This document shows, piece after piece, positions 2,393-64,000 of a stretch of DNA of 64,000 nt. Origin of the DNA: Chrysophaeum taylorii (taxonomy: Eukaryota > Sar > Pelagophyceae > Pelagomonadales > Pelagomonadaceae). Positions within the stretch are counted from its first letter, which is position 1. Each line of letters begins with the position of its first letter. Both the position numbers and the translations under genes were made by a program. The stretch covers positions 155,678-219,677 of the forward strand of contig JAQMWT010000348.1 in the NCBI GenBank assembly GCA_029834535.1, written 5' to 3'. Below the pieces are notes generated by a model. The model had not been told where the DNA came from and ran no database searches. It was given only the letters and a program-made list of their open reading frames with translations.

Positions 2393-3643
2393 ATGCAGAG
2401 ACCGTCCGTGGTGATCGACAATGGGACGGGGTACACGAAGATGGGGTACGCGGGGAACTGCGAGCCCCAGTACATCGTGCCGACGGTGGTCGCGACGCGC
2501 GCTCTCAAGGGGGGGGCATCCACCGGGACGGACGGGGTCGAAGACCTGGACTTTTATATTGGAAACGAGGCACTCGCGCACTCGTCGAGCCACCAGATAA
2601 ATTATCCGATCCGGCACGGGTTGGTGGAGAATTGGAACGACATGGAGCGGCTCTGGCAGCGATGCATGTTCAAGTACCTGCGGTGCGAGCCCGAGGAGCA
2701 CTACTTTCTGCTCACGGAGCCGCCGCTCAACACTCCCGAGAACCGCGAAGCGACCGCAGAGATCATGTTCGAGACCTTCAACGTCCCGGGGCTCTACATT
2801 GCGGTCCAGGCCGTGCTGGCTCTTGCCGCCTCCTGGACCTCGAAGAGCGTTACCGAGAGAACCCTCACGGGCACCGTAATCGACTCTGGCGACGGCGTCA
2901 CCCACGTCATTCCCGTCGCCGAAGGATACGTCATCGGAAGCTGCATCAAGCACATTCCGTTGGCGGGCCGCGACATTACGAACTTCGTCCACAAGCTGTT
3001 GCGCGAGCGGGGAGAACCGATTCCCTCCGAAGACTCGCTCGAGGTGGCGAAGAGAATCAAGGAAATGCACTCGTACGTCTGCCCCGATCTCGCCAAGGAA
3101 TTCGCGAAATACGACCAGAGCCCCGACAAGTACTTTCGCAAATTCCAGGGGATGCACAAGAAGACCGGGGCGGCCTGGACCTGCGACGTCGGCTACGAGC
3201 GTTTCCTGGGTCCAGAAATTTTCTTCAACCCCGAGATATTCTCTTCCGACTTTATCACGCCCCTTCCCGACGTCGTCGACGAGGCCATCGTCAAATGCCC
3301 CATCGACACGCGCCGCGGCCTCTACAAAAACATCGTTTTGTCGGGTGGCTCTACCATGTTTAAAGACTTTGGCCGCCGCCTCCAGCGCGACATCAAGAAA
3401 CAAGTCGATAAGCGCCTCGAGGTCAACATAGCTCGTCTCGGCGCCCTAGGCACCGCCTCGGCACCCCAAAAAATCGACGTCAACGTCATTTCGCACCAAA
3501 TGCAGCGCTTCGCTGTCTGGTTCGGCGGATCCATGCTCGCGTCCACGGGCGAGTTCTTCCGCGTCTGCCACACCAAGCAGCAGTACGACGAAGAAGGGCC
3601 CCGCATCGCGCGCCACAACGCCGTCTTCTCCGCCCAGATGTGA
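2393..3643 (+). CDS. ARP3: Actin-related protein 3 (Arp2/3 complex)
   Basis: A 416-residue protein from ATG 2393, matching the family length of about 415-420. The actin-fold phosphate loop [17 protein letters not shown] is at the N-terminus. The Arp3-typical blocks follow in order: WPIRHG-like [94 protein letters not shown] and [12 protein letters not shown]-like [12 protein letters not shown]. Arp3 pairs with Arp2 to nucleate branched actin filaments. No intron or insertion is seen. The stop codon (TGA 3641-3643) is followed by a pyrimidine-rich 3' region with homopolymer A runs. ARP3 suggests an actin-branching machinery in this organism, used in endocytosis or motility. Confidence 0.97.
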
Positions 3644-3848
3644 TGGCTAAAGAAATCTCTCCACGACCGCGACGACGACCTGCGCTCCTTTCTCCCACCA
3701 CCAAGTTTCTTCTTTTCTTTCTTCTTTCTTTCTTTTCCTTCGTCAGTCAGTCCGACAGTCAAAAAAAAACCTCCCGCGCGTCGCAGCGTGCCCCCCCGAA
3801 AAAAAAAAAACAAACGCACAAGCAGTGGCGGGACTCCACCACCACTTC
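3644..3848. other. Convergent intergenic spacer
   Basis: About 200 bp between the ARP3 stop and the stop of the minus-strand hydrolase. It contains T/C-rich and A-rich runs (for example TTCTTTC repeats near 3700-3740 and poly-A near 3763 and 3800), typical 3' untranslated sequence. No gene is seen. Confidence 0.5.
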
Positions 3849-5819
3849 TTAGGTAGTGGTGTGGCCACAGGGACCGGGCGCCTTGAGGTAGGGACCGTAC
3901 GCGTCCCCGCGGACGATTTTCCCGTCGAGGACGTCGAACGCGTAGTCGACCCCGGAACCCTCCCACGCGCCGAGGTCGAAGGTGTCGGACGCGGCGAGGC
4001 GCTGGCACTTGACGTTTTTGAGGGTGAGCGGGGTCCCCCGCTCGCAGACCATCCCCTCGAGAGACGCGAGCTCGCAGGCGTACGCGGTGCCGTCGCCGAT
4101 AACTGCGAGATAATCGTCGTCGGTTTGGATAAGTATGGCCGTCGCCGCGTCGACGCCGAGGCCCCGCGGCCGGGAAATGCCTTCTTTCGCTAGGCGCGCG
4201 AGCTGCGCGACGAGAAGACCCGCGCGGTCCTTCGTCACGAAGCCGTCGTCGATGATCGCGTCGGCGTAACCAGCAGCAAAGGGGAGAGGCTCCACGATGG
4301 CGTACGGGTCCTCGAGGGGCTCGGTCCCGCCAGATGAGCTCGAGAAAAAAAAAATTCCCCCGATCGTCTTGTCCCGCGACAACAACTCGTCCAGCATCCC
4401 CCGGGACTCGTTCGTGGCGACAAATATCGCGTCGGCCAGGGCGACGACCTTGGTGTCCAGCAGCGCAACAAAGTCATCCGAGCACCGATCGAGATCTAGC
4501 GTCGCGACCGCCGAGAGACCGGGCGTCGTCGTCGTCGTCGGAAGCTTCGCTATCCTCTCGTCGGAGGAGGAGTCCCGCAGTACGAGGAGGTTTCCGCCGC
4601 GGGAGACGAGCCAATCCCAGGCTGCTGACCCCGCCGCCAAGACGACCGGTGCGGCGGGGCGCGTCGTCGGGGATTTCTTCAAGCGGCAGTAGTCGGCCGC
4701 CTGCGGCGCGCAGTCCCCCGAGAGTACAGCTAGAAATTCCGAACTCTGGAGCATGGCGCAGCCGTTGTGGCCGACGTAAGGGACGGAAACCAGGGTGTGG
4801 TTGTTCGGGTCCCGGTCCACAAAGGCGGCGAAGGCGTGGAGACGGAACATGCGACAAGGTCCCTGCGCGTACGCCTCGCAGCTCGTGTCGAGGCCGCCGT
4901 CCTCGGGAGTACAGAGCTCGCAGTCGGCGCGCGCGCGGTCGCAGACGTCGCTCTCGCCCGATAGGTAAACCACGCGGCGCGCCGCGTACGAGGCGATCCG
5001 CGACGTATCGCAATACGCAGGGAGCTCCCCGGCAAGGCCGTACCCGTAGACGTCGTACGAACAGTTCTCGCGAAAAACTTCAAAATCCCAAGAAGTCCTC
5101 GAAGCGATGCTCGCGTTGTCGCAACACGACGTCGACGGTCGCGGCCTCAGAGGACTCGTGTAGGTCACCGACGACGGATTCGCGACAACGTACCGCACGC
5201 GGGGGTCGGGATCCATTTTCGACCACAACGCGTACCGCTGCACGATCTGTCCGCCGGCGGAATGCCCCGCGACGACGACGACCTCCAAATTCGGATATCG
5301 GGCTCTATCTAGAAGCGCAGAAACCATCTCGTCCAAAATCTCGCACGTCGAGATCTGCGCGGCAAGGGTCGATGTGCTATCGCCGCACCAGTGCCAGTCC
5401 CCAACGCCTGAATCGTCGTCGAGCCCGTCGTCGTCGTTCGACGCCCACCATAGCTCCCTCGACGCGTCGAGACCCTCGTCCGAAAATTCGTATACTTGGG
5501 CCCCAAACACCAGCGCGTTCGTCGCGCCGTTCATCACGTACGTCGTGTACTCGTCGCCGTTCCGCAACGCGCCGTGGAACACGATCACGGCCGCTCTCGC
5601 ATCGTCGCCATCCCCGAGCAAGGACTGGCCCTGTGGCCGCCAATACGGAAATCCGCGACCCCCGACGCTCTCCGAGATGCTCGTCTTCAATATGGCCTTT
5701 TCCACTATCCCTCCTTCCTTGCAGCTTCCGCCCTCGCACCACGAGCAAACGACCTCATCGCCCGCAGCAGCAGCAGCAGCAGCACCACCACCACCTAGTA
5801 GAAAATGAAGAAGACGCAT
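3849..5819 (-). CDS. Secreted alpha/beta hydrolase fused to a cyanophycinase (S51)-like domain
   Basis: A 656-residue protein from ATG 5819. An upstream in-frame TTG would add 24 residues without a better start. The N-terminus MRLLHFLL, then Gly/Ala, is signal-peptide-like, and Cys-rich stretches imply secretion. The first half is an alpha/beta hydrolase: VIVFHGALRNGDEY supplies the strand and oxyanion region, and the nucleophile elbow GHSAGG is near residue 187. Cys pairs and an AHAFAAFVD-like segment follow, then VPYVGHNGC, which offers a candidate catalytic His. The last 220 residues resemble peptidase S51/cyanophycinase: an ADAIFVATNES strand, a Ser-rich SSSSGGT loop where the nucleophile loop GTSAGA is expected, DDGFVTKDRAGLLVAQLARL, then GLGVDAATAILI and a VIGDGTAY strand. 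The S51 nucleophile loop is not conserved, so this half may be inactive. No substrate can be assigned. Confidence 0.72.
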   Translation of the reverse strand: MRLLHFLLGGGGAAAAAAAGDEVVCSWCEGGSCKEGGIVEKAILKTSISESVGGRGFPYWRPQGQSLLGDGDDARAAVIVFHGALRNGDEYTTYVMNGATNALVFGAQVYEFSDEGLDASRELWWASNDDDGLDDDSGVGDWHWCGDSTSTLAAQISTCEILDEMVSALLDRARYPNLEVVVVAGHSAGGQIVQRYALWSKMDPDPRVRYVVANPSSVTYTSPLRPRPSTSCCDNASIASRTSWDFEVFRENCSYDVYGYGLAGELPAYCDTSRIASYAARRVVYLSGESDVCDRARADCELCTPEDGGLDTSCEAYAQGPCRMFRLHAFAAFVDRDPNNHTLVSVPYVGHNGCAMLQSSEFLAVLSGDCAPQAADYCRLKKSPTTRPAAPVVLAAGSAAWDWLVSRGGNLLVLRDSSSDERIAKLPTTTTTPGLSAVATLDLDRCSDDFVALLDTKVVALADAIFVATNESRGMLDELLSRDKTIGGIFFFSSSSGGTEPLEDPYAIVEPLPFAAGYADAIIDDGFVTKDRAGLLVAQLARLAKEGISRPRGLGVDAATAILIQTDDDYLAVIGDGTAYACELASLEGMVCERGTPLTLKNVKCQRLAASDTFDLGAWEGSGVDYAFDVLDGKIVRGDAYGPYLKAPGPCGHTTT

Positions 5820-36071: not shown

Positions 36072-36116
<45 letters not shown>

Positions 36117-36464
36117 TCAGACCTCTCCCGAGCATGGGAGCCAGGCCGGACCGACAGGAGCCAGTCCGGAATCACGGGCCTGTAGACGAGGGGCGCCGAA
36201 AGGTGGGTCGGCGGAGAGTGATCATCAAGCTTGTCGCCATGCGACGAGGAGACCGCGATGTGACTGACAACCAACTCGTCGATAACCTTCCGTCTGCGCC
36301 CCCCGGCCATACCCCGTCCCACTGCGAACGTTCCGGCTGCCAACCGGCCCGCCCGGGAGGCGAATAGGTGCCAACCTACGCCGGGAGGGCGGATGCCCTC
36401 GCAAGGCTCAGGATTCATGAGGCACCGTCCTCCATCGCAACCATGCGGTCGGCGATCAGGGTAA
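36072..36464 (-). mobile_element. SINE-like repeat, copy 2 with long AGTT tail
   Basis: About 345 bp of unique element sequence plus a tail of about 11 AGTT units, seen on the plus strand as ACTA repeats from 36072 to about 36116. Sense strand is minus. It is nearly identical to the copies at 42004 and 48940. Direct repeats GGGAGTAC at 36064-36071 and 36465-36472 flank it, although part of this 8-bp match may be element end. An open frame of 103 codons runs through the element into the tail. Confidence 0.8.
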
Positions 36465-36472
36465 GGGAGTAC

Positions 36473-37084
36473 CCCAGGCCCTAAATAGGAGATTCGATTC
36501 TTGCGACACCTTATTAACGAACGGGCTTCGTGGTTTGGTGACCGTCGGAATCGCGCGATACCTAGGTATAATTAGCCTACACTCAATAAGACCGGGCTTG
36601 AAGAAACTTTCCGAAATCCGTTCCTAGAAGACACCTGCTGCGCACAGCCGGCCGGTTCTCAAAAGCACCGGTCCCCCGTCTAAAAAGGACCACCCACCAA
36701 AGGTGATGCGCACGGAGCCCCCCTTTTTTGGCCGCCCTGGAAAACCATGCCGGGACCATCCCAGTGGCTGAGGAACGCCACGTCAGCTTTTTTTCGCTAC
36801 GAACCAGCAGCAACAACCAGGATGTGTGCGCCCTAGTAATGCAGTATCATGCAGGCAACAAACACCCCAGAGGCCGGAGGCTCAATATTATCTAGAATTG
36901 TCCTAGAGGCATTTGAAAGGTCACACCGGCTTTTCTTTCTTTAACCACCCGAATAACGTACGTACGAAGTTCGGGGTTTTTCTACAAAAAGTACAATTCT
37001 GTGATTCTTTGAAGCGGAGGTCCGGTGCGTAACCGTCGGCGCTTCAAAATTAACGTCGTCGTCGTCGTCGTCGTCGTCGTCGCA
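36473..37084. other. Intergenic region upstream of the F-box gene
   Basis: About 610 bp. No gene is recognised. A GTC tract at about 37053-37082 ends two bases before the ATG of the next gene and would encode polyVal if translated from the upstream GTG; it is treated here as 5' leader. Confidence 0.4.
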
Positions 37085-42003: not shown

Positions 42004-42372
42004 AATAACTAACTAACTAACTAACTAACTTCAGACCTCTCCCGAGCATGGGAGCCAGGCCGGACCGACAGGGGCCAGTCCGGAATCACGGGCCTGTAGA
42101 CGAGGGGCGCCGAAAGGTGGGTCGGCGGAGAGTGACCATCAAGCTTGTCGCCATGCGACGAGGAGACCGCGATGTGACTGACAACCAACTCGTCGATAAC
42201 CTTCCGTATTCGCCCCCCGGCCATACCCCGTCCCACTGCGAACGTTCCGGCTGCCAACCGGCCCGCCCGGGAGGCGAATAGGTGCCAACCTACGCCGGGA
42301 GGGCGGATGCCCTCGCAAGGCTCAGGATTCATGAGGCACCGTCCTCCATCGCAACCGCAGTCGGCGATCACT
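42004..42372 (-). mobile_element. SINE-like repeat, copy 3, with perfect 15-bp target duplication
   Basis: Sense strand is minus. The tail is about six AGTT units (AACT on plus, about 42006-42030). The body is nearly identical to copies 2 and 4. GCCCGCCAATGAATG occurs at 41989-42003 and again at 42373-42387, a perfect 15-bp duplication that proves insertion by a target-primed or similar retrotransposition-like process. This copy stops about 10 bp short of the 5' end seen in copies 2 and 4, so it is slightly 5'-truncated, as expected for reverse transcription from the tail. Confidence 0.9.
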
Positions 42373-42466
42373 GCCCGCCAATGAATGTCGCCCCCCAAAC
42401 AAACCTCGAGGCCAAAAAAACTTACCCTCTGTACTGGTGCTTCGTGACGTCACGCCTTATTTTGGA

Positions 42467-48326: not shown

Positions 48327-49644
48327 GTGTCTAACCTCTTTACCGCTTCCGCCATCTCGGCTCTACCACCAACATTATTGTCCTCGCTATCTTCACAGGT
48401 CCAATCTGCCCTCAACCTACCATCACAAGCCGAAACCAAAAGGGATGCCGATCACACTTCTCTATCGTCATTTGACGAAAAGCACGGCATGGCTGATGAG
48501 GCTGACGAACCGTCACCACCTGTTCAACCGATCATTATTCCAACGAATCTGGTATTGCTGAAGAATTTCTTTACAGCCAGCCTCTCCACTACTTGCCCAC
48601 ATTCGGAAAACGCCTTCCTCACCAACTACATGAAGGTAAACAGTGTCCCTCCACTTTGCTCTTTTCTATATCTTGACTCTTATGCTACCATCTCATTGAT
48701 GTCCACCTACGATTTCGCAATACCCAATCATATAATTCCATTGGACTCCACATACGCTCCGATTGTTATTCAGACGGCAACAGGACAACAACGGGCATCA
48801 CACATGATGTTAGCACGCAACATCATTATTCCCCTACTAGATCATCCACAAGTTGGCTACGTTAAGATCGACTTCGCTTTATATCTTCAACCAGTGCATG
48901 ACCGTCATCTCGCTATCCTGAGCATGCTCGAGTGGAACCTAACTAACTAACTAACTTCAGCCCTCTCCCGAGCATGGGAGCCAGGCCGGACCGACAGGAG
49001 CCAGTCCGGAATCACGGGCCTGTAGACGAGGAGTGCCGAAAGGTCGGTCGGCGGAGAGTGACCATCAAGCTTGTCGCCATGTGACGAGGAGACCGCGATG
49101 TGACTGACAACCAACTCGTCGATAACCTTCCGTCTTCGCCCCCCGGCTATACCCCGTCCCACTGCGAACGTTCCGGCTGCCAACCGGCCCGCCCGGGAGG
49201 CGAATAGGTGCCAACCTACGCCGGGAGGGCGGATGCCCTCGCAAGGCTCAGGATTCATGAGGCACCGTCCTCCATCGCCACCGCAGTCAGCGATCAGGGT
49301 AAGGGAGAGTGGAACCAGACTAATCTTACCACCGTGTTCAATGATCGAGCTGAGCCAAAGCTCAGCGCTGTCACGAGCCGCATAGACAAAGATGTACGTA
49401 TACCCATGCACTATGTAGCAGCTACCCGCTCTCCCTTGTATCACTTACAACATCGCGCGCGACAAGCGGTGGAACTTCGCTCCCTTGCATTTCTCTCAAG
49501 CGATATCATGAAAACAGGGAGCTACTGGCATACTACAATTGCCTACTCCAACGAGTTTTACCAGATCGGCCGTGGATTCGCCCTTTGGTTCTCAATCTTC
49601 GAAACAGAACAAATGTTCAGCAAAATACGCAGCCATTAAGTTAC
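48327..49644 (+). pseudogene. Copia protease region, split by a SINE-like insertion
   Basis: In the +1 frame relative to gag, sequence from about 48327 reads LPPTLLSSLSSQVQSALNLP and then SFLYLDSYATISLMSTYDFA, an aspartic protease active-site block in which the expected Asp-Ser-Gly-Ala is Asp-Ser-Tyr-Ala. It continues IVIQTATGQQRAS and IDFALYLQPVHDRHLAILSM (flap and C-terminal region). The frame is cut after codon LEWN by the SINE-like element at 48940 and resumes after it (QTNLTTVFNDRAEPKLSA). Removing the insertion keeps the frame, showing that the insertion came later. The Gly to Tyr change suggests that this protease copy is dead. Confidence 0.7.
48940..49306 (-). mobile_element. SINE-like repeat, copy 4, nested in the copia element
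   Basis: Sense strand is minus, with a short AGTT tail (about four units, 48940-48955 on plus as AACT). GAGTGGAACC at 48930-48939 and 49307-49316 is a perfect 10-bp target duplication. The copy is full length at the 5' end (GATCAGGGTAAGGGA on the plus strand at its right edge) and nearly identical to copies 2 and 3, so the family was active after the copia element had inserted. Confidence 0.9.
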
Positions 49645-49649
49645 TCTCG

Positions 49650-50918
49650 CCAGTTTTTCTCTCACAAGAGTCCAATCTCCGCAAACCCTCTGTCATGTTA
49701 CTTTGTTCTGGTTTGTCAACTCCGGCGTTCCTGTCTCAAGCCACTAATGACTTAGGCTTAAATATCAATGTAAAAGTTGTTGTTGAGTCTGATGATACGC
49801 TTGTTCGTATGTTACGCCACCGTTTTCCTACTGTAGTATTATTTGAATCTCTCCCCGCCTTTATTAACCATCTTCACCTAATCTCACCAGAGGAAAGGCG
49901 CACATTCTATTGTGATATAATTGAGATCACTCCTCCCTGCACAAACAGGAATTTACTAAAACAGCAAAAGTCAGAAGACTTACACAGCCTGCTGGACGAT
50001 TCTCTTTTCGACAGCATGCTGTCTGTCATCAAGCCACTCCAGCCCTTGGTTCTACTGGCTGAGATGACGCCTCCGCATAAGTACTGTCATCAAGACCACA
50101 TCACAGTGGCCAACCTTATCTATACTACCCTTGATTGCTGTGTCGATGTTGTTGATAGGCTCCCGACCTACCTATGTGGCGACTACCAATCTAGAGAAAG
50201 GTGGATATGCATCGCACGCAGATATTCCACTGGACCAATTAAACTATCATCGTGGCCCATCCTCCATCCACGCCCCTTCCTAAAGATCGTGGATGATCTA
50301 CAAGCTATTCCCAAGCGCCTTTGGCTACCTAACCACATATCCAAAGACTGGATCCGGGTGTTCCCCGATCCTCCATATATATCCGTTCCTAAAACGTTTG
50401 CACCTTACTCTCGCACAGGTTCTGCTCAGCTTACTATGGCTGATCTTGAATCCCTCAATATGTTACTACTTCGCCTTCACTCACAACAGGCTCACGAGCA
50501 ACGTACTCACTCTGTTCAATCCGAGTGTACTTACCATCAGTTGTGCTTTAAACGCTCCTCTATGGAGCCATTACTCAATGCAACACATCCTATACACGTC
50601 AAGATTTTTACAATCCTCTATAACGTGTTTGCAAGCTTACATACTAACTCACCCACTCCTGTGTCCTATTACATAACCGTTTTCGAAACTAACCAACCGT
50701 CACACAGGTTATTACTTACAACCTCATCAACATCACACAACTCCTACTTCTTAACTGGTGGCCACCATTCCGACGGCGACCTCACCATAGAGAACGCCAC
50801 CACAAAAAAACTCCACTCCCACGCCTTTGGGAGCACGTATACGTTCACTGCTTCCGACATCCCCGCGACCGGGACACGTCCATATATCTGGAGCCGTTTA
50901 TGGGTTACTTGTGGATAG
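49650..50918 (+). pseudogene. C5 cytosine-methyltransferase-like domain in the copia polyprotein
   Basis: A frame of about 420 codons with the ordered landmarks of a DNA cytosine-5 methyltransferase. Motif I: SVMLLCSGLSTPAFLSQ, corresponding to the FxGxGG loop. Acidic motif II: KVVVESDDTLVRMLRHRFP. Motif IV: CDIIEITPPCTNRN, with the catalytic Cys in PPC at 49938-49940 (usually PPCQ). Motif VI: LVLLAEMTPPH, keeping the Glu of ENV. Motif VIII: GDYQSRERWICIARR, a clear QxRxR block near 50190. Motif IX: AQLTMADLESLNMLLLR near 50430. Possible motif X helix: KIFTILYNVFASL. The frame is uninterrupted through all motifs. The motif I glycines are degenerate, so activity of this copy is doubtful. It lies between protease and integrase, an unusual place for any extra domain in copia elements. 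Confidence 0.75.
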
Positions 50919-53663: not shown

Positions 53664-55468
53664 TAATTCACCAGCCATTGTTGGTCCTGACGAATATAAG
53701 GTCCAAGAAGCGGACGTTTCCATTGACGAATATAAACTTAAGTGCCTCCACGGTTTGTCGCCTGAAAACAGGCACGCCTACCTCAAGGCCATCGCCAAGA
53801 AACGTCCTATTGACAGCAAGATGGTGCTGAAGATAAAACAGACTCTGCAGGCAAATACGTTAAGCACAAGGCTCGCCTTGTACTACGTGGCTTCCTAGCA
53901 TCTCTTGGCGCCGATTTCTTTGGTACCTTCAGCCCATGGCCACCATGACCGCAATCCGGGTACTACTTGCTATTGCAGCATACAAGCAGTTGCCTGTTAT
54001 CATGCAGACGTCCCGAACGCCTTCGTTCAGTCTGACATCGATGCCAACGTCTATGTTCAGTTACCAGACGGCATCAAGCTTATCGACCCCGATGACGCTG
54101 AGTACAAGGGCCGACGTCTACCGAAATTGCTGAAGTCACTTTATGGACTTAGGCAATCACCAGTCCTTTGGAACAAAGAGATAGACGGCTTCTTCCGTAG
54201 CCTTTGTTACAAACGCCTGCATTCGGACTCTTGCCTATATGCTCGAGTATCCGCACATGCTAAGTTCGTCGTATGCAGTCTGTCTGTAGACGACATTGTT
54301 ATTGTGTCCAATGACGACCCTCTTCGTACTGAATTACAGGATGCCCTCCACAAACGGTGCTGTAGAGCAGTTTGAACCTGTCCATACCTCCTAGGCATGC
54401 GTGTGTGTCGCACATCTGACGGTCCATTTCTCTGGATGTGCAAGCCAAGCTGGATGAACTCTTCGCTGATCACCCAGTCTTGCAGCAACTGACCCTTAAA
54501 AGCCCGTCATCGTCCTTCAAGTATAAAGATGGCACTCCCAGCACTGAAACAGAGTTGTACATCAGCGCACTTTGCCACCCTCCTTGGCAAGCTGGTGTTC
54601 ATGCAAGTTGCCTGCAGACCTGACTTCTCGCAAGCCTTGGGCAGATGTTCGCGTGGTATGCATGCACCCACATATGTTCACGTCCGAATGCTAGAGCACT
54701 TCGCTACCTCAAGAAGCCGGAAAACCGCTCACTTCGCCTCTGGTTCCATCCTAAAGGTAATGCCATTGAAGCTCACCTTCGCACTGTCTCCGCTAATCGA
54801 ATTGATCTATCCACTGTGGTCGACTACCAACCGCGGAATGTATCTACTGGACAGTTTGACCCCTTAGTTGCCATGGTTGACGCTGACAATGCCCCTTCCT
54901 TAGCACAGGAAGATAGGAATCTACCACCGGGTTTGTCTTCTATCTTTTCAACTGCCTTATTGGTTGGAAAAGCAAACTTCAACCGATTGTCTCCTGCTCA
55001 ACTCACGAAGCTGAGTTGATTGCCCTCAGTATTTGTGCTGATGAAGCTGTTTGGCTACGCAAGCTGTTGTTGGACTCTCCTTTGTCGTCAACCCCACCTT
55101 CTACGTCAACAATGCTAATGGTGAGAACACCGCTGACCCTGTTGACTTCGATGACAATGACAACCCAATTGCTGAAGATATGCGCTTCATCAGAAGCCTA
55201 CCTCTTTGTCTGACAATGCTGCCGCTGTTCACACTCTAATAACCCAGATGGGTCCTCTCGATCCAAGGCACTGTCGACCAGATGGTTTAAGATCCGTGAG
55301 TACATCTCGCTACAGAAAATACGAGTCCATCATGTTCCCGGCAAGCTGAACGTGGCGGATGGTTTTACAAAACCACTTGCTGCTGAGTTCTCCACTTTTC
55401 GTTCTCTACTCGTTATGCATCATGCTTCTGACGACAAGCCTTACAGGATTGAAGATACTAACTCTAGT
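53664..55468 (+). pseudogene. Copia reverse transcriptase and RNase H
   Basis: Copia RT landmarks in order, over several frames: YVKHKARLVLRGFLASLGAD near 53850, FGTFSP, DVPNAFVQSDIDANVYVQLP (Asp of the active site) near 54010, LPKLLKSLYGLRQSPVLWNK near 54120, and CSLSVDDIVIVSND (the YVDD-type box, here SVDD) near 54285, then LGMRV. RNase H follows: VAMVDADNAPSLAQEDRN near 54870, LTKLSELIALSICADEAVW, WLRKLLL, and the closing IREYISLQKIRVHHVPGKLN and VADGFTKPLA near 55345. The family is unmistakable; frameshifts occur near 53900, 54375 and 54900, so this copy is dead. Confidence 0.9.
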
Positions 55469-55489: not shown

Positions 55490-56471
55490 TCCCTGGTCCT
55501 TACCTTCTCTTGCCACATTTTTTTGTACGGGCAGTGTTGTTCATGTCTTCTTGACACTCCCGTGGCCGTGGCATCTCTCCTGTTGTTTCAAAAGCGACAA
55601 AAACCCATAACCACTGTCACTCCTACTACATCCAGGCTGCTACTGTGCCGACACCAGCGATGGCCTCAAATGGATTTTACCCTGATTGAACGAGGATTCT
55701 TCTTTCTGAGAGCGTACCGTAGCTACGCCCTTTCTCTCTTCTGTTATGCGAGCGGAAATCTGCGGCACTCAACTCGATATGAATCTGCTGACTCTTTTTG
55801 TTTGTGGAACTAACGACCTTCATATCATGCGCCTACCATTACTACAGGGAAGCTGCTCCTGCTATTAGGCTTGGCTTTTCTAGAGGCCCCAAACGTGAAC
55901 GTTTCATCCTGTCATCCTATTGTACGGTGTCTCAACGATTAGAACAGCCTGCATTTGGCTTCTACCATATTTCGAAGTCACAAGCACCAGTGAACTCCCC
56001 ACTGAAGTGCTGAGTCACCTTAACACAGATGACCACAAGGAATGGTCATATTCCCATCTCAACTATCACCGCTAACATTTGTTGTGCTTGTCACAACACC
56101 GATCAGGCGCCCATACAACTGGCTAGCGTGCGTATCATTTGCCAAGGATATATGCTTGACCAGAATCTAACGCAACATTCGTCACTTACTTAGTCTTATC
56201 AGTAACCGATGCAGCCACAGACCACTTATTACTCAGATGCACCTGGAGCATCTTAACCTTTGTAACGCTCGAGCAAACACAAGCTCGTAAAACTCAGGCT
56301 ATATGTTCAAGCCACCAAATCCACCATGGATTCGCTGTTATCTGATCGTGTACAACATCGCTGCACGCGTAATCCTCTGATGATACAGAACCGCTATATC
56401 ATCCTGATGTAATGTTCGGCCACACATGTCAGGCAGAACATTAGGCTCCTGCACCCCTTTCTTTTAACGTT
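55490..56471 (+). pseudogene. Copia extra module X1, unknown
   Basis: About 325 codons downstream of RNase H, where standard copia elements end. It is broken by several stops. Readable patches include VASLLLFQKRQKPITTVTPT, EICGTQLDMNLLTLFVCGTN, EVLSHLNTDDHKEWSYSHLN and FVTYLVLSVTDAATDHLLLR. No domain was recognised. It is bounded by SLNY-type sites 4 and 5, which suggests that it was a separate mature protein. Confidence 0.45.
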
Positions 56472-56491
56472 GACCGAGCGTCGTTAAACTA
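56472..56491 (+). other. SLNY-type site 5 (between extra modules)
   Basis: GACCGAGCGTCGTTAAACTA, one base shorter than the other four, encodes RASLNY followed by YTPR. It separates the two C-terminal modules X1 and X2. Confidence 0.6.
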
Positions 56492-56983
56492 CTACACTCC
56501 ACGCTAGACGCTCTGGAGATATCTTCGCCACCGTTACCTACGCCTTCTGCTTCGCTTGTTGATTCCGATTTCTTGTGCCAACAAGTCGATCAACTCAGGA
56601 AACTCCTGGAGCCGGCTCTTCCCTCCTACAGCCAACACCCAACTTATACGCGTACAAGATCACAGAGCTGCGTTGCTCTCGCAATACTCACCGCTCATTA
56701 TCAACATGCTACCAACTACTCTCCGGACGATCACCTCCTTCATCTACGTGACAAGTTGCTCTCATGCTTCAGAGCAGTCCGTCCTCTCATGTGAATCTGA
56801 AGACTCTTCTATCTTCGCTCTTCGTTCGCCAAGTCCAACCTTTTTTTGGAAAACCAACTGACACCTTTCAACTAGGTTATCGCCATCCATACTGGTGCTC
56901 TACTTGCACTCACCTTTCTCTTTCTTCACTTTCATTCAGCTATTGGCGTTCACCACCTTACAGCAGAAGCTGACGATGATTAG
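56492..56983 (+). pseudogene. Copia extra module X2 with C-terminal membrane-type segment
   Basis: About 160 codons with a frame reading CQQVDQLRKLLEPALPSYSQ and DDHLLHLRDKLLSCFRAVRP. After a frameshift it ends with VIAIHTGALLALTFLFLHFH, then SAIGVHHLTAEADDD and TAG at 56981-56983. The hydrophobic run and short polar tail look like a C-terminal membrane anchor. Some plant copia elements (sireviruses) carry an env-like gene at this place; this module may be a counterpart, but no sequence similarity is claimed. Confidence 0.4.
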
Positions 56984-57218
56984 ATAATCTAACTCACTGT
57001 CTGTGTATCTGTGTTTCTTAATGTTTGCGTTCAAATCAAATCGACTCTCAGCTCCACCAAGTCAAGTCAAGTCCTGACCGACCCTTCTACTCTTGATGCT
57101 TCGTATGTGACATCGTGATCATCAAGATGCATTCCACCTCTTTTCTTTTTCTCTTCATCATCATCATCTCTCAGGAGATGTACAGTCGCACCTTGCGCTT
57201 AAGACATCTCGAGGGGTG
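56984..57218 (+). other. Copia 3' non-coding region
   Basis: About 235 bp between the last coding module and the 3' LTR. It ends ACATCTCGAGGGG immediately before the LTR, a short purine run that may be the polypurine tract. TCATCATCATCATCTCTC repeats lie near 57150-57172. Confidence 0.5.
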
Positions 57219-57521
57219 CAGAGAAATCTGCTGCCTCTTACCCTTATCCGTCCGTTGAGAACGTGATCTTCCTTACCCTTCTTCTTCTTCTTTCTACACA
57301 ATCAAATAGTCCTATGATTTGTGCCTACGCTCATCATCATATGGTCTAGCGCGTCCGAGGTGTATGGCACTATACACTTAACCTTTTCGTGTAGTTCTAG
57401 ATGCCGCCTGTCGTGTTCTGAGGATATAGGGAACATAACCTTCATTCCCCGAATTAACCTTTCCAGCGTTACACGATGAGACAGGATGGTTTCCCAGGTG
57501 ACTTACCACTGCTTGCTAAAT
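57219..57521 (+). repeat. 3' LTR of the copia element, truncated by the gypsy insertion
   Basis: TGCAGAGAAATCTGCTGCC to GCTTGCTAAATG aligns with 46031-46337. At 57521 the similarity to the 5' LTR (which continues CTCTGTAGGTTATGGGC) stops abruptly and TGTGCCATAAAGCCTGAG begins, marking the left end of the gypsy-type element. The remaining part of this LTR should lie beyond the right end of that element, outside the window. Confidence 0.8.
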
Positions 57522-58607
57522 GTGCCATAAAGCCTGAGAGAGAGAGGGTAGCCTCAGCGATCAGGAGTTGCCTCCACCGGACTCCTGGTGTTGAGAACAG
57601 GCTGCCCTCAGCGAGTCGGCAGCACGAGCAGCAGGCTGAATGAGCGTCTCGGGAACAGATATTCGTGAACAACGACAGGTTCAGGAACAGTGCCACGCAA
57701 AGTGAACTTAGGATCAACACATCGATATGGCGGGGCGAAGTCGGTGACACAAGGGTTGTGGCAGTAACGCCCGTCTCCCCACTTGCCTGCCTGCCACCTG
57801 ACTTACCCTGATTGTTGCCCTGGTATTGACCTTGCATTGCGGGGGTGTCATCTCGACACTTCACCTGCGCTTCTACTGGACAATGTACCGGGCATTTGTA
57901 TTTGACTTGATGTCTTCTTGATATTGCCCTCATTTGATTGTCCGATTTCGTGATGGCGTGAGGTATTACGCTGAGATCGGGCGTGTGGTGGTTTCACCCG
58001 CGGTTCGGGTTGGGAGGAAGGGTTGTTGAGGCCCCCGGTCCGGCCAGGAGGGGCGGGTATCTGAGAACCACTTCAGTGGTCTCAGAAACGGGAATCGATA
58101 GTCCAACTCCCGGACTATCGATCTCCTTTTTTTCGGCGGCGAGTCGGTTCGTAACGGTCGAGTGAGCGCGAAGCCGACGCATTTGTGGGTGAAGATCCAG
58201 AGGATGCGGGTACCGCGCAGGGTTCATTTTACGTGATTCGGATCGAACGGGGAGAGGAGTCACTGACTGTTCACCATAAAAGCGCATATCGTAAGGCAAA
58301 GACAGAATAAGGATTCAGTGCAGGGACTCCATTTGCGTCTATTGGAAGAACACCGTTCGGTACGCCCTTTCAACGGCCGGAAGCCGAGGAAAGTGGCATC
58401 GGAAGAGAGGCAAGATCATCTGATAGCCTCGACAGCCCCCCAAGCGCGGTCATCCTTCCGGATCCACGCGGCGGCGAAGGGGGGGCTACGGTTGCGCCAG
58501 ACGCAACTTCAAGACCAGGTGAGCCGACGTTCCCGTACGCACGACCCTACGAAGGTGCGATGAATGCTACGGAGTCATCTCGAGCGTAACCCGGACCGTT
58601 TACGGCA
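57520..58607 (+). other. Gypsy LTR and leader, with hairpins
   Basis: About 1.1 kb without a gene. The LTR/leader boundary could not be set because the partner LTR is outside the window. Two strong inverted repeats lie at 58061-58085 and 58094-58122, followed by a T-run. The first may regulate transcription or RNA folding. Confidence 0.5.
58061..58122. repeat. Two adjacent hairpins in the gypsy leader
   Basis: CTGAGAACCACT (58061-58072) faces AGTGGTCTCAG (58075-58085) with a one-base bulge. ATCGATAGTCC (58094-58104) faces GGACTATCGAT (58112-58122) perfectly with a 7-base loop. A TTTTTTT run follows at about 58127-58133, so the second hairpin has the look of a terminator or of a packaging/dimerisation element. 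Confidence 0.6.
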
Positions 58608-59796
58608 ATGCGTGGACCAGAGGAGAGTGCACCTCCTAGGCCACCATCTGCGCATACGAGAGCGACAGATTTTCGCGTCGATGTCGACCCCGAGGTTCTG
58701 CAGACCATCGCCGAACGATTCGAGATGTACCAGTCGCAGATTGAGCAAGTCATACGTGAACTTGAGAACACCCGCCGCGACGCTCAACAACAACGCTCAG
58801 AAGTGGAGCGACAGCGGATCGACAACGATCGACTTCGGCGAATGGTGGAGGAACCCATGCGAGCGCATGCTCGGGAGGCACGGCCAATCTCTCCGAATGC
58901 TACGCGCATTACGCCCGACGATGATGACGCTGTATCGGCACTGACCGACGATCAGCCACCGCGAAGTCGACCGGAGCCTACCCCGCACCATCATACTGAC
59001 CCCGGTTCGGCGCGTCCTCGTGACGAAGAAGAGATACTTCGTGTCAAGAAGGGAGCTGCTGGTATGACACGCATCACGTTTTCGAATCTCACGGGGCAAA
59101 TTACCAAGGACCGTGATGAGGTGGACGCGTGGTGGATGCAATTGCGGCGTATGATGGAAGGCATGATTGATAAACCCTCAATAGCGATGAATGTGATCGG
59201 AGGCGAGTATCAACTCGCCCCTATGGAAGCTTATCGCAAGTGGGAAGTTGAACGGCCGCAGATGTGGAAACAATACAAGGGTGGGACCATCACAAAGAAG
59301 TTGCGCCAGCATGATGAGGACTGTGTGGATGCTATGCACGAGGCGACGAAGCTTCCTTGTCCACCTCGGGCTACGGTTGAGGCGAACGTGAATGGTTCAA
59401 TTTACGGCAAGGAATTTGTCATTGAATAAGTATATCGCGCGATGGGTGCGGAAATTCGGCAAGTGGAGTCAGGGTCGCTATACTGATCCGGCTGCGTTCC
59501 GTTCGCACTTCACTGCTGGTCTCGGAGCGCTTGCGGACGAGCGTCGAACTTGCTCAGGCCTCACCGCATATGAAAGCATAGCTCTCACCCTCAACGATGT
59601 CATTCAATTGACCATCCAGATTTCCAAGATTCTGGAAGCCAACCCTACTGCCAACATCGAAGAGGCGATTAAGAAGGAGAAAGGAAAGGAGCACGCACCA
59701 CGGATGGGAGAGAGCAGCAGCAGCAGAGGCAGGTTGCAGTCAGTCCAACGGTTTGGTTATGTTACTGACAGGGTTGGGTGGCTACCACAGGGATAG
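58608..59796 (+). pseudogene. Gypsy gag, frameshifted
   Basis: ATG 58608 begins a frame of 273 codons with a coiled-coil N-terminus (EVLQTIAERFEMYQSQIEQV), an acidic Pro-rich linker, and capsid-like sequence (ITKDRDEVDAWWMQLRRMME, APMEAYRKWEVERPQMWKQY). After a frameshift near 59395-59425 the capsid continues as KYIARWVRKFGKWSQGRYTD, FRSHFTAGLGALADERRTCS and LTLNDVIQLTIQISKILEAN. This is a typical gypsy Gag. The tail is Lys/Glu- and Ser-rich. Confidence 0.7.
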
Positions 59797-60150
59797 ATAA
59801 CCATACGCGTCAAGCAATTACGACGTGCCTCAGTTGCGGCCGGCATGGTATTTTACCACGACAACGGTGTGTCCTGTGCCGGACAATCCCTCGAGGAAGA
59901 GGCGTGCGCTCAGACGTTGACGGCTGCGGGTTTTCCAGCAACGCCGAGGGACAGGAGCAATACCGACGGACGCTTTTAGCTGCAGCAGGACAGGCTTCAG
60001 TAACTCAGCTAGCCCGCGCGTTGTGCAACAACCGCAGGTGGTCTACAGCAGCAGGCCAGGTGGAGGCCAACAGGGAGCTGGTTGCAGGCACTCAGCAGCG
60101 TTTGGTTGCAGGCTCTCAACAACAGGTGTGCGAAGGCAGCCAGCGGTAGC
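59797..60150 (+). pseudogene. Gypsy nucleocapsid-like region with a degenerate zinc knuckle
   Basis: CLSCGRHGILPRQRC at about 59825-59870 resembles a CCHC zinc knuckle (C-x2-C-x4-H-x4-C) with the spacing altered. Gln/Ala/Arg-rich sequence follows, rich in CAGCAG and GGT codons. This fits the nucleocapsid end of Gag. Confidence 0.45.
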
Positions 60151-61680
60151 GGTCAGACCTCGGTGCGCCTGGAGGATCTGACTACGGCTCTCAACACGAT
60201 GAACTTGATTCGTCAGGCAGCAGACGGCCGCCGGGTAGAGGGCGACAGTTTCAGAGAGCGAACTCTTGCCAGCACAATGATGGTCGCCGCTCAGTGGCAA
60301 GTGCTTGGCGAAGATCAGGATGACACTAAGCGAGCGGATTACTGCACTGGCAGTATTCTGAGCTCATGGAGGGCAACGTGTATGACGATGACGAGGTTGG
60401 GGGCGATGATGATAGCTTCCTGCAGAAGGCTATTCCCCTGGTGAACCTCCTTCCTTTTGGTCATCACTGAAGATGCATGGGTGGAGGAGCAGGAGCAGAA
60501 CCGAAGTGACTGGAGTTGCATCTAGAGTTTTCTCGGAAGACGAAGATAATCGTGACGAATTGGGGTATACGATTGTTCGTGTGGGACAAGATACCTTGGT
60601 TGCCATGGGATAGTGCCACACGAGGGACGACTGTGCCGAGCGTTGTGCTGCTCACCCTTCCATCTCTTCGGATTTCGAGAATTTTGCCCTCAGACTGCGT
60701 TGAATACCAGGGATCCCGACCATCGTGAAAATAAAGCCGTAAGGTACGATGGCACGAGATCCTTTCTTTTGACTCTTGGCTATCTCCTCGCTAGATGGTT
60801 CGAAATATTCCATCATCGCTGCTGGTTTGGATGGCAGGCTGTTCCCCTACATCGATCACCGCTTGCATCGCAAACTTGATCGTGACGGCAAAATCATCTC
60901 CGTCAGCCACTATTACGTACTCTAAATGGATCAGGAGGTTCGGGGAGCTGCATTCGAGAATGGGTCATTCTCCGGATCTTTGGTGCCGACGACATCCATG
61001 CTGCTCATGTTCTTCGTTGGTCAAACGAATGGGCAGTTACTATTAGGAGCACGAGAACGACTCGGGTACGATTTTGGATTATGCGACAGAGAGAGCTATT
61101 TTTCGGCGTTCTGAAGTGACCATTGGAGTTCTCAAGAATCGGACTTCCGCCTCGCCACAAGACCAGCATGGAATTGTCCTTTACAATGATGCATTCGATG
61201 CGACCGCAGGTAGTGCAGTTGTTCCTTCGACAGCAAGCTTGCTGTGCAATACGGAAAATCAAACTTGGACGCCAGTTGGTAAACCGTGGAGTTAACAGTC
61301 ATTGGAGCTCTATTCGTATCAGAGCGAATCACCATCACGCCTCCGGTGATCAGACTGCTGGAAAAGCTGAACCAACTTGAATGCCCTGCAGACGAGGAAG
61401 ATATCATCCTCATTTCGCGTACGTGACGAGTACTCGATTCTTCTTCAAACCAACCGTACTTCTTGGAGATGGGTGCGATGTGCCGCTGGAAAGGTCACGT
61501 ATTCCGACCTTATCGGTCACTCCTCAAAGATCTCCGCCTTGTACCTGGTTGAGTGACAGACCTCCTCCTCAGCCACCTCCAGATGAAGAAGTGAAAAAAA
61601 CACCAGAAATGGAGATGGAGGCGACTGTTAAGCTGCTATCTAAGCACGCATCCTTGGTTTGGATACCCATCAACTACACC
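60151..61680 (+). other. Gypsy region between gag and the DNMT-like domain
   Basis: About 1.5 kb in broken frames. Readable patches include FSEDEDNRDELGYTIVRVGQ (about 60530), LDGRLFPYIDHRLHRKLDRD (about 60830) and LRIFGADDIHAAHVLRWSNE (about 60970). A protease would be expected, but I could not identify an Asp-Ser/Thr-Gly site. A Pro/Glu-rich linker (PPPQPPPDEEVKKTPEMEME) near 61560-61620 precedes the methyltransferase-like domain. Confidence 0.4.
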
Positions 61681-62524
61681 TTCGTCGTCGTCTACTTTGC
61701 TGGCGCTGGAGGATCGACGTTGGGTATCCGACGATGCAATGAGCTATATGGCAGTTCATTTCGCATTGTCCTGGCTTTGGATGCTTGTCCTCAAGCCCGA
61801 GCCACCTTTGATTTCAATTTTCCGCATGTTTTGCATGAGTTGGGGAAATCTCATCGTCGTACATACGACTTGGTGTTGTCGTATTTACACTCAGATTTTG
61901 GAAGCACTCTTATTTTCACGCCAGTCCGCCGTGTATCTATGGATCGACTGCCAATTTGCACTAGACGCACGCAAGGGCGCTACTATTACTTCTTGGGTCC
62001 TGCGTCATTTCCGCAACGCACCTTGTGATTGGACGATGGACGCTCGAGCAGGAACCATCAGTGATCCCTTTGTGCATCACTTTTATGTGCCGCGTATTGT
62101 TGATTTTATAGTATCACGCCAGAGCTGCGTGCTCGCGCACGCGCATACTTGCTTGCAATGTTCGCTTGGAACTGCCGTTATTATCGCGTGTACCACCGAA
62201 TTTACGAGACCGTCTTGGCCCAGCGTTGGGATTTACTGGTGGTCACCCGCTCATTATAGTGAACAGTTTCTCATCTACGCGCCCGGGTATCGACCCTGCC
62301 TTCACGGTGACGCGCAATAAACTGGACTATAGGCTCATCTCGAACACCCGTCCACTCACGTTACAGATGCACCAGGAAATTATGACCGTTCCTGCTACGT
62401 GGCAATGGGGTGCGACAGTTTCGAGACAGTACTATGAAGATGCGGCAGTATGGTGCCACCCGCGACTATGACGCGGATTGCGCTAGCAGTGCACAATTCG
62501 TTTGAACCCCTCGAAATTGGGTAA
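61681..62524 (+). pseudogene. C5 cytosine-methyltransferase-like domain in the gypsy polyprotein
   Basis: Motif I is textbook: FVVVYFAGAGGSTLGIRRCN (61681 on), followed by motif II IVLALDACPQARATFDFNFP. After frameshifts: motif IV-like DCQFALDARKGAT with the catalytic Cys-Gln at 61949-61954 (Asp in place of the usual Pro), an aromatic helix block MFAWNCRYYRVYHRIYETVL, motif VIII AQRWDLLVVTRS at 62218, motif IX PAFTVTRNKLD with NTRPLTLQMHQEIMTVPATW at 62300-62393, and motif X MVPPATMTRIALAVHNSFE from 62450, ending at TAA 62522-62524. The order and spacing fit a complete DNA (cytosine-5)-methyltransferase of about 280 residues. The broken frames mean that this copy is inactive. Motifs VIII to X are stronger than in the copia version. 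Confidence 0.82.
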
Positions 62525-63214
62525 GTTGCGGAATATTGCGACGACTACGCTAGCCCAACCTGATCACCATATTCTACGGTTTTCACCTTGCTGTAGAGTC
62601 GCGCATTCCAACGCTCGACCCTGCCACTCGAAGTGTGGTTGCGCCCGATGAACTTATTCTCCTGCGCGTCCTGCACCATCAGCTGCTGCCCCACCACCCC
62701 ACCACCACTCGGTTACATCGCCTGGGACGGCATCTTTTGCAGGGGCACCGTCGCCACTGCTGTTATGCAGAGCAACCAAGTTCATGACCAGCCCTCCGCA
62801 ACTGCTGAAGAAGAAGGCACCGCGAAAGAGCGACCAGCGTATTTCAATACACGCGCGTTCCGTGGGCGGACGCGCCCCACGACGAACATGGTCAAACCTG
62901 CCGGTGATGCCTCCTCATTTAGCGGATCAGGAGAGCATGCAGGTCATCCCTCCGACCGTCGCGGAGTCGAAGGTGATGACTGAATGGGTATTACAGAGCA
63001 TCCTGCTTTAGATGATGACGAAAAATGATGATGAAGCATTTAATCTCGTATTCGTGGGCATTTTTCGATGATGTGATGAGACCTGTTATTCACCTGAAGT
63101 GACGCTCCGGTTCAAAGAAGAGACCCGACTCCCGTCAAACTCTCGCCATATCGGTTGTCGAAAGAAAAAGTTTGGTTTCGGATGCAGATTGAAGCATGGA
63201 CCCGAGACGGGTTA
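62525..63214 (+). other. Gypsy linker between DNMT-like domain and RT
   Basis: About 690 bp. A frame from 62633 reads VWLRPMNLFSCASCTISCCP-type sequence and another (62784 on) is Lys/Arg-rich. No domain is recognised; it probably corresponds to a linker and the N-terminal part of the RT polyprotein. Confidence 0.4.
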
Positions 63215-64000
63215 TAGTCCCGCAATTCTCCATGGGGTTTCCTATTTTGATGTTGCCTAAGAAGGTGCTGAGCCTGGCACTTCCAATGGCGCAGAGCAGC
63301 TGCGACCTACGGCGCCTCATTGCTCAAGGATGATAGCTGGCCGAGTGTGAGCATGGCTGACGCGTTGATGTTTCTCATTGACAAGTTTTGTCGCTTGGAT
63401 ATTCGGGGGCTATCACAATTTACGATTGTCGCTAGATGCACAAGATGGTCACCTTCACTAGTGGGAGCGTACGGCGCGTGGTGCGTCTACCTTTGGGAGT
63501 CAAACCAGCCGGAAGTTTGTTTAAAGCAGTTGAACTGACTTGTCGCAATGAAGCATCGTGATCTCGTGGCATATATCGACGATATGGCATCGCCGGTCAC
63601 GCAGATACAAGAATCTTTGCAGTGCCTTGTGCAAGTTATTTATCTCCTTGAAAGGACAGCGCAAGATCAAGAAGATTCATTTGTAGCAGGAAGTCATTGA
63701 GTTTTTGGGTCATTTATCTACCCCGAACGGACTTCTTCCATCACCAAGATCTTTAGAACCATCAGACACATGCCAATTCATGGCACGTCGGATGCTGACC
63801 CTAAACAAGTGCGATCTTTCCATGAATGGGAGTTTGCCGGCGTTATGTAAGGAATTTTGCGAAAGTTGCAGAGCCGTAAGACAACTGACGTTGCTGGACG
63901 TGAAATTCAAGTGGACGAAAGAATTGTCAGGAGCTTTGGGATGCCATAATCGAGGCGTCACGTCGAAGAATACTATCATCCTGATTACTCATTTACTGTT
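63215..64000 (+). pseudogene. Gypsy reverse transcriptase (partial, runs off the window)
   Basis: Read over several frames: SPWGFPILMLPKK near 63225 (the first RT block), sequence corresponding to DxRxGYHQ-type block near 63395, LPLGVKPAGSLFKAVE near 63490 (the PFGLxNAPxxFQ counterpart), YIDDMASP near 63570 (the catalytic YxDD box), QSLQCLVQVIYLLER, and FCESCRAVRQLTLLDVKFKW with TKELSGALGC near 63855-63945 (the thumb/tether region before RNase H). The arrangement is Ty3/gypsy-type rather than copia. The sequence continues beyond position 64000. Confidence 0.8.

Follow-up and report, generated by a model that had tools for sequence, protein, structure and literature searches.

A predicted C5-cytosine methyltransferase domain in the Pol region of Ty3/gypsy retrotransposons of Chrysophaeum taylorii

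Ty3/gypsy LTR retrotransposons of Chrysophaeum taylorii contain an additional Pol domain between the protease-like region and the reverse transcriptase (RT). Motif residues and scores of unbroken copies against the Pfam profile PF00145 predict it to be a C5-cytosine methyltransferase (DNMT). The domain occupies this place in the copies of all three gypsy subfamilies that were read, is abundant in the genome, retains the catalytic residues and has evolved under selection; it is thus a real part of Pol. Sequence comparison indicates that it was most likely present before three gypsy subfamilies split.

The element at the contig end and its motifs

The analysed window, a stretch of 64,000 nucleotides, is the final 64 kb of contig C348 (219,677 bases); the genome assembly comprises 70.8 Mb in 697 contigs. 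A single, frame-broken Ty3/gypsy LTR element extends from position 57757 to the contig end (Table 1). Its RT is truncated there, and RNase H, integrase and the 3' LTR are missing. The window LTR matches two other copies at both of their ends: one on contig C421, where the matching parts start at 161277 (5' end) and cover 170602-170933 (3' end), and one on contig C345. These two copies have long terminal repeats, the 5' and 3' repeats agreeing at 93.1% over 333 columns in C421 and at 91.1% over 291 columns in C345. The TG and CA ends were read for the window copy only, and the aligned 5' end in C421 shows no TG. The gag part gives weak Retrotrans_gag matches, below the cut-off, in the unbroken copies L032 and L030. 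No Pfam match was obtained for the protease-like region.

Table 1. Features of the gypsy and copia elements in the window (positions are those of the window)
Feature	Position	Strand	Basis
DNMT-like domain of the copia element (copia-B), unbroken frame	49674..50504	+	C, E and R-x-R invariant in six rows of alignment A4
5' LTR of the gypsy copy, about 319 bp	57757..58075	+	TG start, CA end; matches C421 and C345 copies
gag frame, N-terminal part	58590..59429	+	collinear with gag part of L032 and L030
Protease-like region, limits approximate; GLDG at 60824-60835	60760..61390	+	comparison with unbroken copies; D-G motif by eye
C5-cytosine methyltransferase-like (DNMT) domain, frames 1, 3 and 2	61630..62534	+	tblastn of L032 domain; PF00145 in unbroken copies; last bases by eye
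Motif I, FAGAGGSTL (SAM site), frame 1	61696..61724	+	F, G, G, G invariant in alignment A5
Motif II, LALDACPQA, frame 1	61771-61797	+	window reading
Motif IV, ASPPCIYG with catalytic Cys, frame 3	61920..61942	+	PPC invariant in alignment A5
Motif VI, LEQEPS in place of ENV, frame 3	62043..62060	+	EQE invariant in alignment A5
Motif VIII, SRTR, frame 3	62133..62144	+	R-x-R invariant in alignment A5
Motif IX, RPLT, frame 3	62349-62360	+	window reading
Motif X, MVPPATMTRIALAV, frame 2	62450..62491	+	PP invariant in alignment A5
Reverse transcriptase, frame-broken, limits approximate; LPLGVKPA 63487-63512, YIDD 63572-63583	63130..64000	+	RVT_1 in other copies

The hallmarks of C5-cytosine methyltransferases are G-x-G of the SAM site, the catalytic Cys in PC (motif IV), Glu in motif VI and R-x-R in motif VIII. 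In the canonical DNMT forms, motif VI is ENV and motif X contains Asn. In the window copy the frame of the domain is broken at least twice, with motifs I and II in frame 1, motifs IV, VI, VIII and IX in frame 3, and motif X in frame 2. Alignment of the domain of an unbroken copy by tblastn gave segments 61630-61899 in frame 1, 61896-62423 in frame 3 (two stops) and, overlapping the latter, 61964-62509 in frame 2 (three stops).

A preliminary description of the window had placed such a domain between gag and RT; this holds, the more exact position being between the protease-like region and RT. The same is true of its motifs I, IX and X, and of motif II, given there as ALD. However, two of its assignments have to be replaced. 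The Cys-Gln pair taken for motif IV belongs to DCQF (61946-61959), which is out of frame (frame 2), and AQRW (62218-62229), taken for motif VIII, is likewise out of frame (frame 1); the true motifs are ASPPCIYG and SRTR. Motif VI had been overlooked. The comparison with PF00145 that it had suggested succeeded in part: the domains of the unbroken relatives L032 and L031 pass the cut-off of 22 bits, whereas the window frame alone scores 15.4 bits (E 0.013). Thus the assignment of the window copy rests on its relatives.

Between 58560 and 64000 the window copy has lost up to 10 bases at each of 97 places and 220 bases at one more; it also has 7 insertions and 219 substitutions. The small deletions begin only after 59000, from where on each 500 bases contain 4-13 of them; faulty assembly near the contig end may thus account for some of the breaks. 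Outside homopolymers lie 25 of the 38 single-base deletions. The excess of deletions over insertions points to a contig end left without polishing or to an unusual mutation process; given the lack of small deletions before 59000, pure decay was rejected as the cause of the breaks. Among 18 other copies, those that align cleanly have fewer deletions per substitution (for instance 4 to 36 in L013, 4 to 22 in L011, 1 to 28 in L019, 0 to 56 in L017), with L047 as a counter-example (13 to 38 in 1.4 kb). Copies L014, L016, L024, L025, L026 and L046, which show hundreds of differences and are probably of mixed subfamily outside the domain, were left out of this comparison.

Two further peculiarities of the contig were observed. 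The junction between a copia end and a gypsy element occurs twice (window 55651-61395 and locus L054, 1-6271), the two occurrences being approximately 105 kb apart and 89-92% alike; either a nested insertion was duplicated or the assembly contains one stretch twice. A short repeat, read as GRCLMNPEPCEGIRPPG, is common to the minus-strand frames 36107-36571, 42021-42449 and 48947-49444. The third of these frames lies within the copia element, near a 377-base insertion specific to the window copia copy.

Unbroken copies, subfamilies and selection

A search of the genome with the window frame (215 aa) produced at least 152 matches, many of them 85-94% identical; 150 rows of this search, after joining of double pieces, correspond to 142 distinct places. 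Copies L030, L031 and L032 have unbroken frames of 1812, 2129 and 1815 aa, respectively, running from gag through DNMT. Gag, protease and DNMT are encoded in one frame and are followed by RT, RNase H and integrase, the integrase domains being present downstream in L030 and L032. In L030 and L031 RVT_1 exceeds the cut-off within the long frame itself; in L032, where the long frame stops before the RT core, it does so in the frame that follows. RNase H exceeds the cut-off in L030 and L032 (28.3 against 29.8 in L031). In L030, RVT_1 (49.1 bits), RT_RNaseH (87.2 bits) and Integrase_H2C2 (60.3 bits) follow each other in three successive frames, the protease having been identified by eye. With this order of Pol domains (PR-RT-RH-IN) and the terminal repeats of its relatives, the element is a Ty3/gypsy LTR retrotransposon.

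The long frames score 30.7 (L030), 30.8 (L031) and 33.0 (L032) bits against PF00145. The domain alone scores 38.7 bits in L032 and 38.3 in L031; in L041 and L051, which represent another subfamily, gypsy-2, the scores are 26.6 and 26.3, the long frame of L051 remaining under the cut-off with 19.9 bits. The domain of L052, from a third subfamily, has no match to PF00145, and in PHROGs it gives only weak matches to DNA methyltransferases (best 14.0 bits). The PHROGs family named DNA methyltransferase matches L032 with 44.1 and L031 with 45.9 bits. The NCBIfam dcm scores, 22.8 (L032) and 22.3 (L031), are far under the cut-off of that family.

The additional subfamilies were represented in the tail of an RT search (150 rows) at 61-64% RT identity. 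In both L051, where the domain is part of a frame of 3067 aa, and L052 it is situated between the protease-like region and RT; L041/L053 is one further copy of the L051 kind. In alignment A5, with six rows from three subfamilies that are 38-45% identical between each other, the invariant positions are FxGxGG, Asp of motif II, PPC, EQE, R-x-R and PP of motif X. All six rows have EQE instead of ENV and a replaced Asn in motif X, whereas motif IV varies (PPCIYG, PPCVHS or PPCVDS). In alignment A1, one of the eight copies of the window subfamily, gypsy-1, has EHE at motif VI (L025). The RT identities are 89%, 61-67% (gypsy-1 against the others), 82-83% and 96%; the DNMT identities are 84%, 38-41% (against L032), 44-45% and 91%. 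The two regions group the copies alike, and on this ground the domain most likely predates the subfamily split.

A DNMT match lies 0.2-4 kb upstream in at least 112 of the 150 RT rows. This number is a floor, as the other 38 rows include L052, whose domain was found by reading, and those on contigs C53 and C66, which have an upstream motif IV site. Several strong RVT_1 matches were observed on contig C696, which is perhaps an organelle sequence with group II introns.

Exact degenerate patterns of motif IV match the 70.8 Mb at 116 (gypsy-1 form) and 302 (gypsy-2 form) sites, and the reversed patterns at none; these are matches to the pattern alone and do not imply the rest of the domain at each site. 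Among 1024 first-look candidates, the gypsy-2 domain was scored in at least 129 rows, 105 of them without a stop (counted by eye). Counts from protein searches are lower bounds, since only the best candidates were scored. On the other hand, duplicated contigs are possible (C25 and C521 look alike) and would inflate the counts.

For the pair L032/L031 the dN/dS ratio of the DNMT domain is 0.072 at dS 1.37, the lowest among the segments computed for this pair: it is 0.12 for the protease, 0.12 for a part of RT and 0.32 for the computable part of gag. The N-terminal part of gag and the linkers give 0.31-0.54, and the gag core is saturated. Other values are 0.034 for RT (L030/L031), 0.23 for the gypsy-2 pair L051/L041, and 0 to 0.60, at low dS, for close gypsy-1 pairs. 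A low ratio over nearly saturated synonymous change means that the encoded protein has been needed.

The preliminary description had named two findings that would speak against it, a recent insertion of a host pseudogene and absence of the domain from other copies. The hundreds of motif IV sites and the scored gypsy-2 copies dispose of the latter. As for the former, the window copy is indeed broken and under the Pfam cut-off. However, few copies and neutral evolution would be expected of such an insertion, and both are contradicted by the copy number and by purifying selection (dN/dS 0.07). Together with the absence of reversed patterns, the occurrence in three subfamilies and PF00145 scores of up to 38.7 bits, this makes a recent host DNMT pseudogene, or a chance resemblance, scarcely credible.

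Copia domains and relatives of the methyltransferases

The copia element of the window (copia-B) carries a different DNMT-like domain. Thus both LTR superfamilies have such domains, as the preliminary description had stated. The motifs of the copia-B domain are PPC, AEM and SRER. It scores 11.3 bits against PF00145, under the cut-off, and related copies score 12.5 bits or have no match; nothing was found in NCBIfam. It is called DNMT-like because of the motif order and because its matches in Pfam and PHROGs, at the limits used, were all to DNA methyltransferases. Genome-wide there are 93 rows with this domain, two copies being counted twice, and hence at least 91 copies. Downstream are a weak rve match (15.6 bits, in L039) and RVT_2 (window 53899-54375). 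Locus L037 contains two domains of the copia-B type (1672-2499 and 3451-4260), 52% identical, 1 kb apart and on one strand; in the second, PPC is replaced by SRC.

The domain of a second family, copia-A (L033), passes PF00145 with 36.5 bits and has the motifs LPCQ, ENV and SKTR; it is followed by a weak rve match (17.4 bits) and then by RVT_2. PF00145 gave 57 rows in the genome, and the best eight are two host genes and six copia-A copies. In both copia families the domain stands between the protease-like region (identified by eye) and the integrase; its gypsy counterpart stands between the protease-like region and RT. The dN/dS ratios are 0.11-0.15 for copia-A and 0.16-0.54 for close copia-B pairs. 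A frame of the LINE type with endonuclease-like and RT regions (L058, 1362-4601, by eye) was seen to have no DNMT; thus not every retroelement needs one. This suggests that retroelements without a DNMT coexist with the others in this genome.

Among PDB sequences the profile of alignment A5 has five matches at E up to 10, of which four are C5 methyltransferases: the top two, 8yf3 (E 0.01) and 3g7u (E 0.27), named cytosine-specific methyltransferases, and two Dnmt2 proteins (E 1.4 and 1.5). Dnmt3 is absent from these five, and the narrower alignment A1 had no PDB matches. Copia-A matches three cytosine methyltransferases (E 0.038-0.056).

Of the two host genes, L001 is Dnmt2-like: it matches 1g55 (E 4e-39) and contains PPCQPHTRQ, Dnmt2 proteins having PPCQPxTRQ in motif IV. 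The other, L002, matches 7r76 (E 3e-143), a record whose molecule name is DNA repair protein Rad8 and which we take to be Cryptococcus Dnmt5; for this reason L002 is called DNMT5-like. In hhalign comparisons against 40 column-shuffled controls, the gypsy profile gave z 7.6 with the host Dnmt2 (146 columns) and z 0.3 with the host Dnmt5. The z values were -1.1 for gypsy and copia-A, 2.2 for gypsy and copia-B, and 2.4 for copia-A and copia-B. However, the two host proteins, both matching PF00145, gave z 0.1. As the procedure misses the kinship of Dnmt2 and Dnmt5, its null result for gypsy and copia is compatible with one source or two; separate origins of the gypsy and copia domains are plausible. 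Assignment of the gypsy domain to Dnmt2 was rejected, as its motif IV is of a different form and the similarity is only a distant one between profiles.

Other searches were less informative. A collection of 5.8 billion proteins, queried with the gypsy domain in its long frame, copia-A and alignment A2, yielded nothing at E<=0.01, and no relative was found in scans of viral contigs; both procedures depend on short words, and this evidence is weak. In phages, tblastn matched 2 of 50,697 records, the better of which (E 4e-3) is annotated as a C-5 cytosine methyltransferase. AlphaFold2 models had low confidence (pLDDT 38.7 for gypsy A2, 38.1 for copia-B A4) and were not used; a Foldseek search with the A2 model gave nothing at E<=0.001, and its 50 listed rows did not include a DNMT.

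Possible function and known systems

For window positions 1-42000, which are rich in genes, the CpG observed/expected ratio is 1.32. The elements give 1.00-1.03 (copia-A), 1.05-1.09 (gypsy-1), 1.17 (L052) and 1.30 (L051). Among changes carried by one copy (12 gypsy-1 and 6 copia-B copies), C-to-T at CpG is not above that in other contexts. Genes have less TpG plus CpA than gypsy-1 and copia do, a difference that could be explained by a slight footprint of C-to-T change or by base composition. The CpG data argue against strong CpG decay but leave room for methylation itself. In the window gypsy copy (58560-64000), 1.1-2.0% of CpG sites are changed relative to two copies, against 3.8-4.9% of other C/G sites; this difference was not seen among other copies. 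In Symbiodinium, according to the available part of an earlier report, the CG content of DIRS elements with and without a DNMT does not differ significantly, although de novo methylation of CG in yeast was reported for the DNMTs of SymbioDIRS (PMC5890265).

On balance, we find it somewhat probable that a Ty3/gypsy lineage gained a C5 methyltransferase in Pol before the three subfamilies split, and that the enzyme, kept under strong purifying selection, acts on the element's own nucleic acid. The DNMT, taken in between protease and RT, would be translated within Gag-Pol, freed by the element's protease and carried inside the virus-like particle. There, with SAM as the methyl donor, it would methylate cytosines of the element's nucleic acid, the freshly made cDNA being the likeliest target. 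The outcome could be a self mark presented to the host, protection of the copy, or a chromatin state of the new insertion. Against methyl transfer speak EQE in place of ENV, the replaced Asn of motif X, the missing Pfam match of L052 and the lack of a C-to-T excess at CpG. Indeed, the two replacements, present in six of the six A5 rows, could mean that catalysis was lost and the domain became a nucleic-acid-binding or structural part of Pol. This seems improbable, since PPC, Glu of motif VI, R-x-R and FxGxGG are invariant at 38-45% identity, which is more than the upkeep of a fold seems to require.

The substrate could instead be RNA, the enzyme methylating the genomic RNA of the element or the primer tRNA, which would help in packaging, in priming or in evading RNA surveillance. 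This is rather unlikely, but it would agree with the absence of C-to-T excess at CpG, the profile similarity to the host Dnmt2-like protein, which is of the tRNA type, and the two Dnmt2 sequences among the five PDB matches. RNA methylation was also raised for SymbioLINE by the authors of PMC5890265, in the part of it considered here. However, those Dnmt2 matches are weak and rank below two cytosine-specific methyltransferases, the PHROGs matches are DNA methyltransferases, and the motif PPCQPHTRQ of the host protein is missing from the gypsy domain. Still less probable is an enzyme directed not at its own element, but at the host genome or competing elements, whose silencing it would alter. 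The high abundance of the domain and a host DNMT5-like gene that could maintain the marks would fit, whereas host genes show no CpG decay and a Pol domain is expected to be inside particles. Returning to methylation of the element's own nucleic acid, a broader form of it is proposed tentatively: gypsy and copia may each have independently taken a C5 methyltransferase from non-Dnmt3 sources, directly after the protease, and kept it as a standard Pol domain modifying the nucleic acid of the particle. If so, the post-protease slot would be a predictable place for replication-linked modification enzymes.

DNMT-bearing retroelements, namely KnitGypsy-Dnmt3, SymbioDIRS and SymbioLINE, were published in 2018 (PMC5890265), and the following comparisons are with the available part of that report. 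KnitGypsy-Dnmt3 of Klebsormidium nitens is likewise of the gypsy type, with its DNMT encoded in the frame of Pol, conserved key residues, several copies and purifying selection (Ka/Ks below 0.2). However, it is Dnmt3-related and has DIRS-like repeats, whereas the elements considered here have terminal direct repeats, EQE, and PDB matches to bacterial-type enzymes and Dnmt2 without Dnmt3. Its copy number is lower than that in Symbiodinium, and it showed no activity in yeast, a result called inconclusive by the authors. SymbioDIRS-Dnmt3 and SymbioLINE-Dnmt resemble the present case in having hundreds of DNMT retroelements, purifying selection and congruent histories of RT and DNMT. The carriers there are DIRS and LINE elements, the abundant Copia being without a DNMT; here they are Gypsy and Copia, in a 70.8 Mb genome.

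The consulted part of another study (PMC12344493) describes LTR Copia and DIRS elements that carry DNMT3, together with orphan DNMTs outside the main families. Copia is a carrier here as well; the word gypsy is absent from the main text of that study, whereas here gypsy carries the domain, which may be one more orphan clade. A Ty3/Gypsy element of orchids has likewise gained a nucleic-acid modification enzyme; in the part of that report seen, it is an AlkB m6A demethylase in an additional ORF (PMC9289625), unlike the C5 methyltransferase predicted here in Pol. No report of the present gypsy DNMT family was found in searches of the open-licence literature. As far as these searches show, the new features are a DNMT of gypsy that was not recognised as Dnmt3, the conserved EQE of motif VI, the abundance, and the occurrence in both Gypsy and Copia of one genome.

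Why retrotransposons carry an enzyme of the type used by hosts for silencing has been a question since 2018. The compact genome of C. taylorii, with hundreds of domains in three gypsy subfamilies and two copia families, offers several lineages in one host. These lineages allow one to ask whether the target of the enzyme is cDNA, RNA or host DNA, and whether its capture recurs at one place in Pol.
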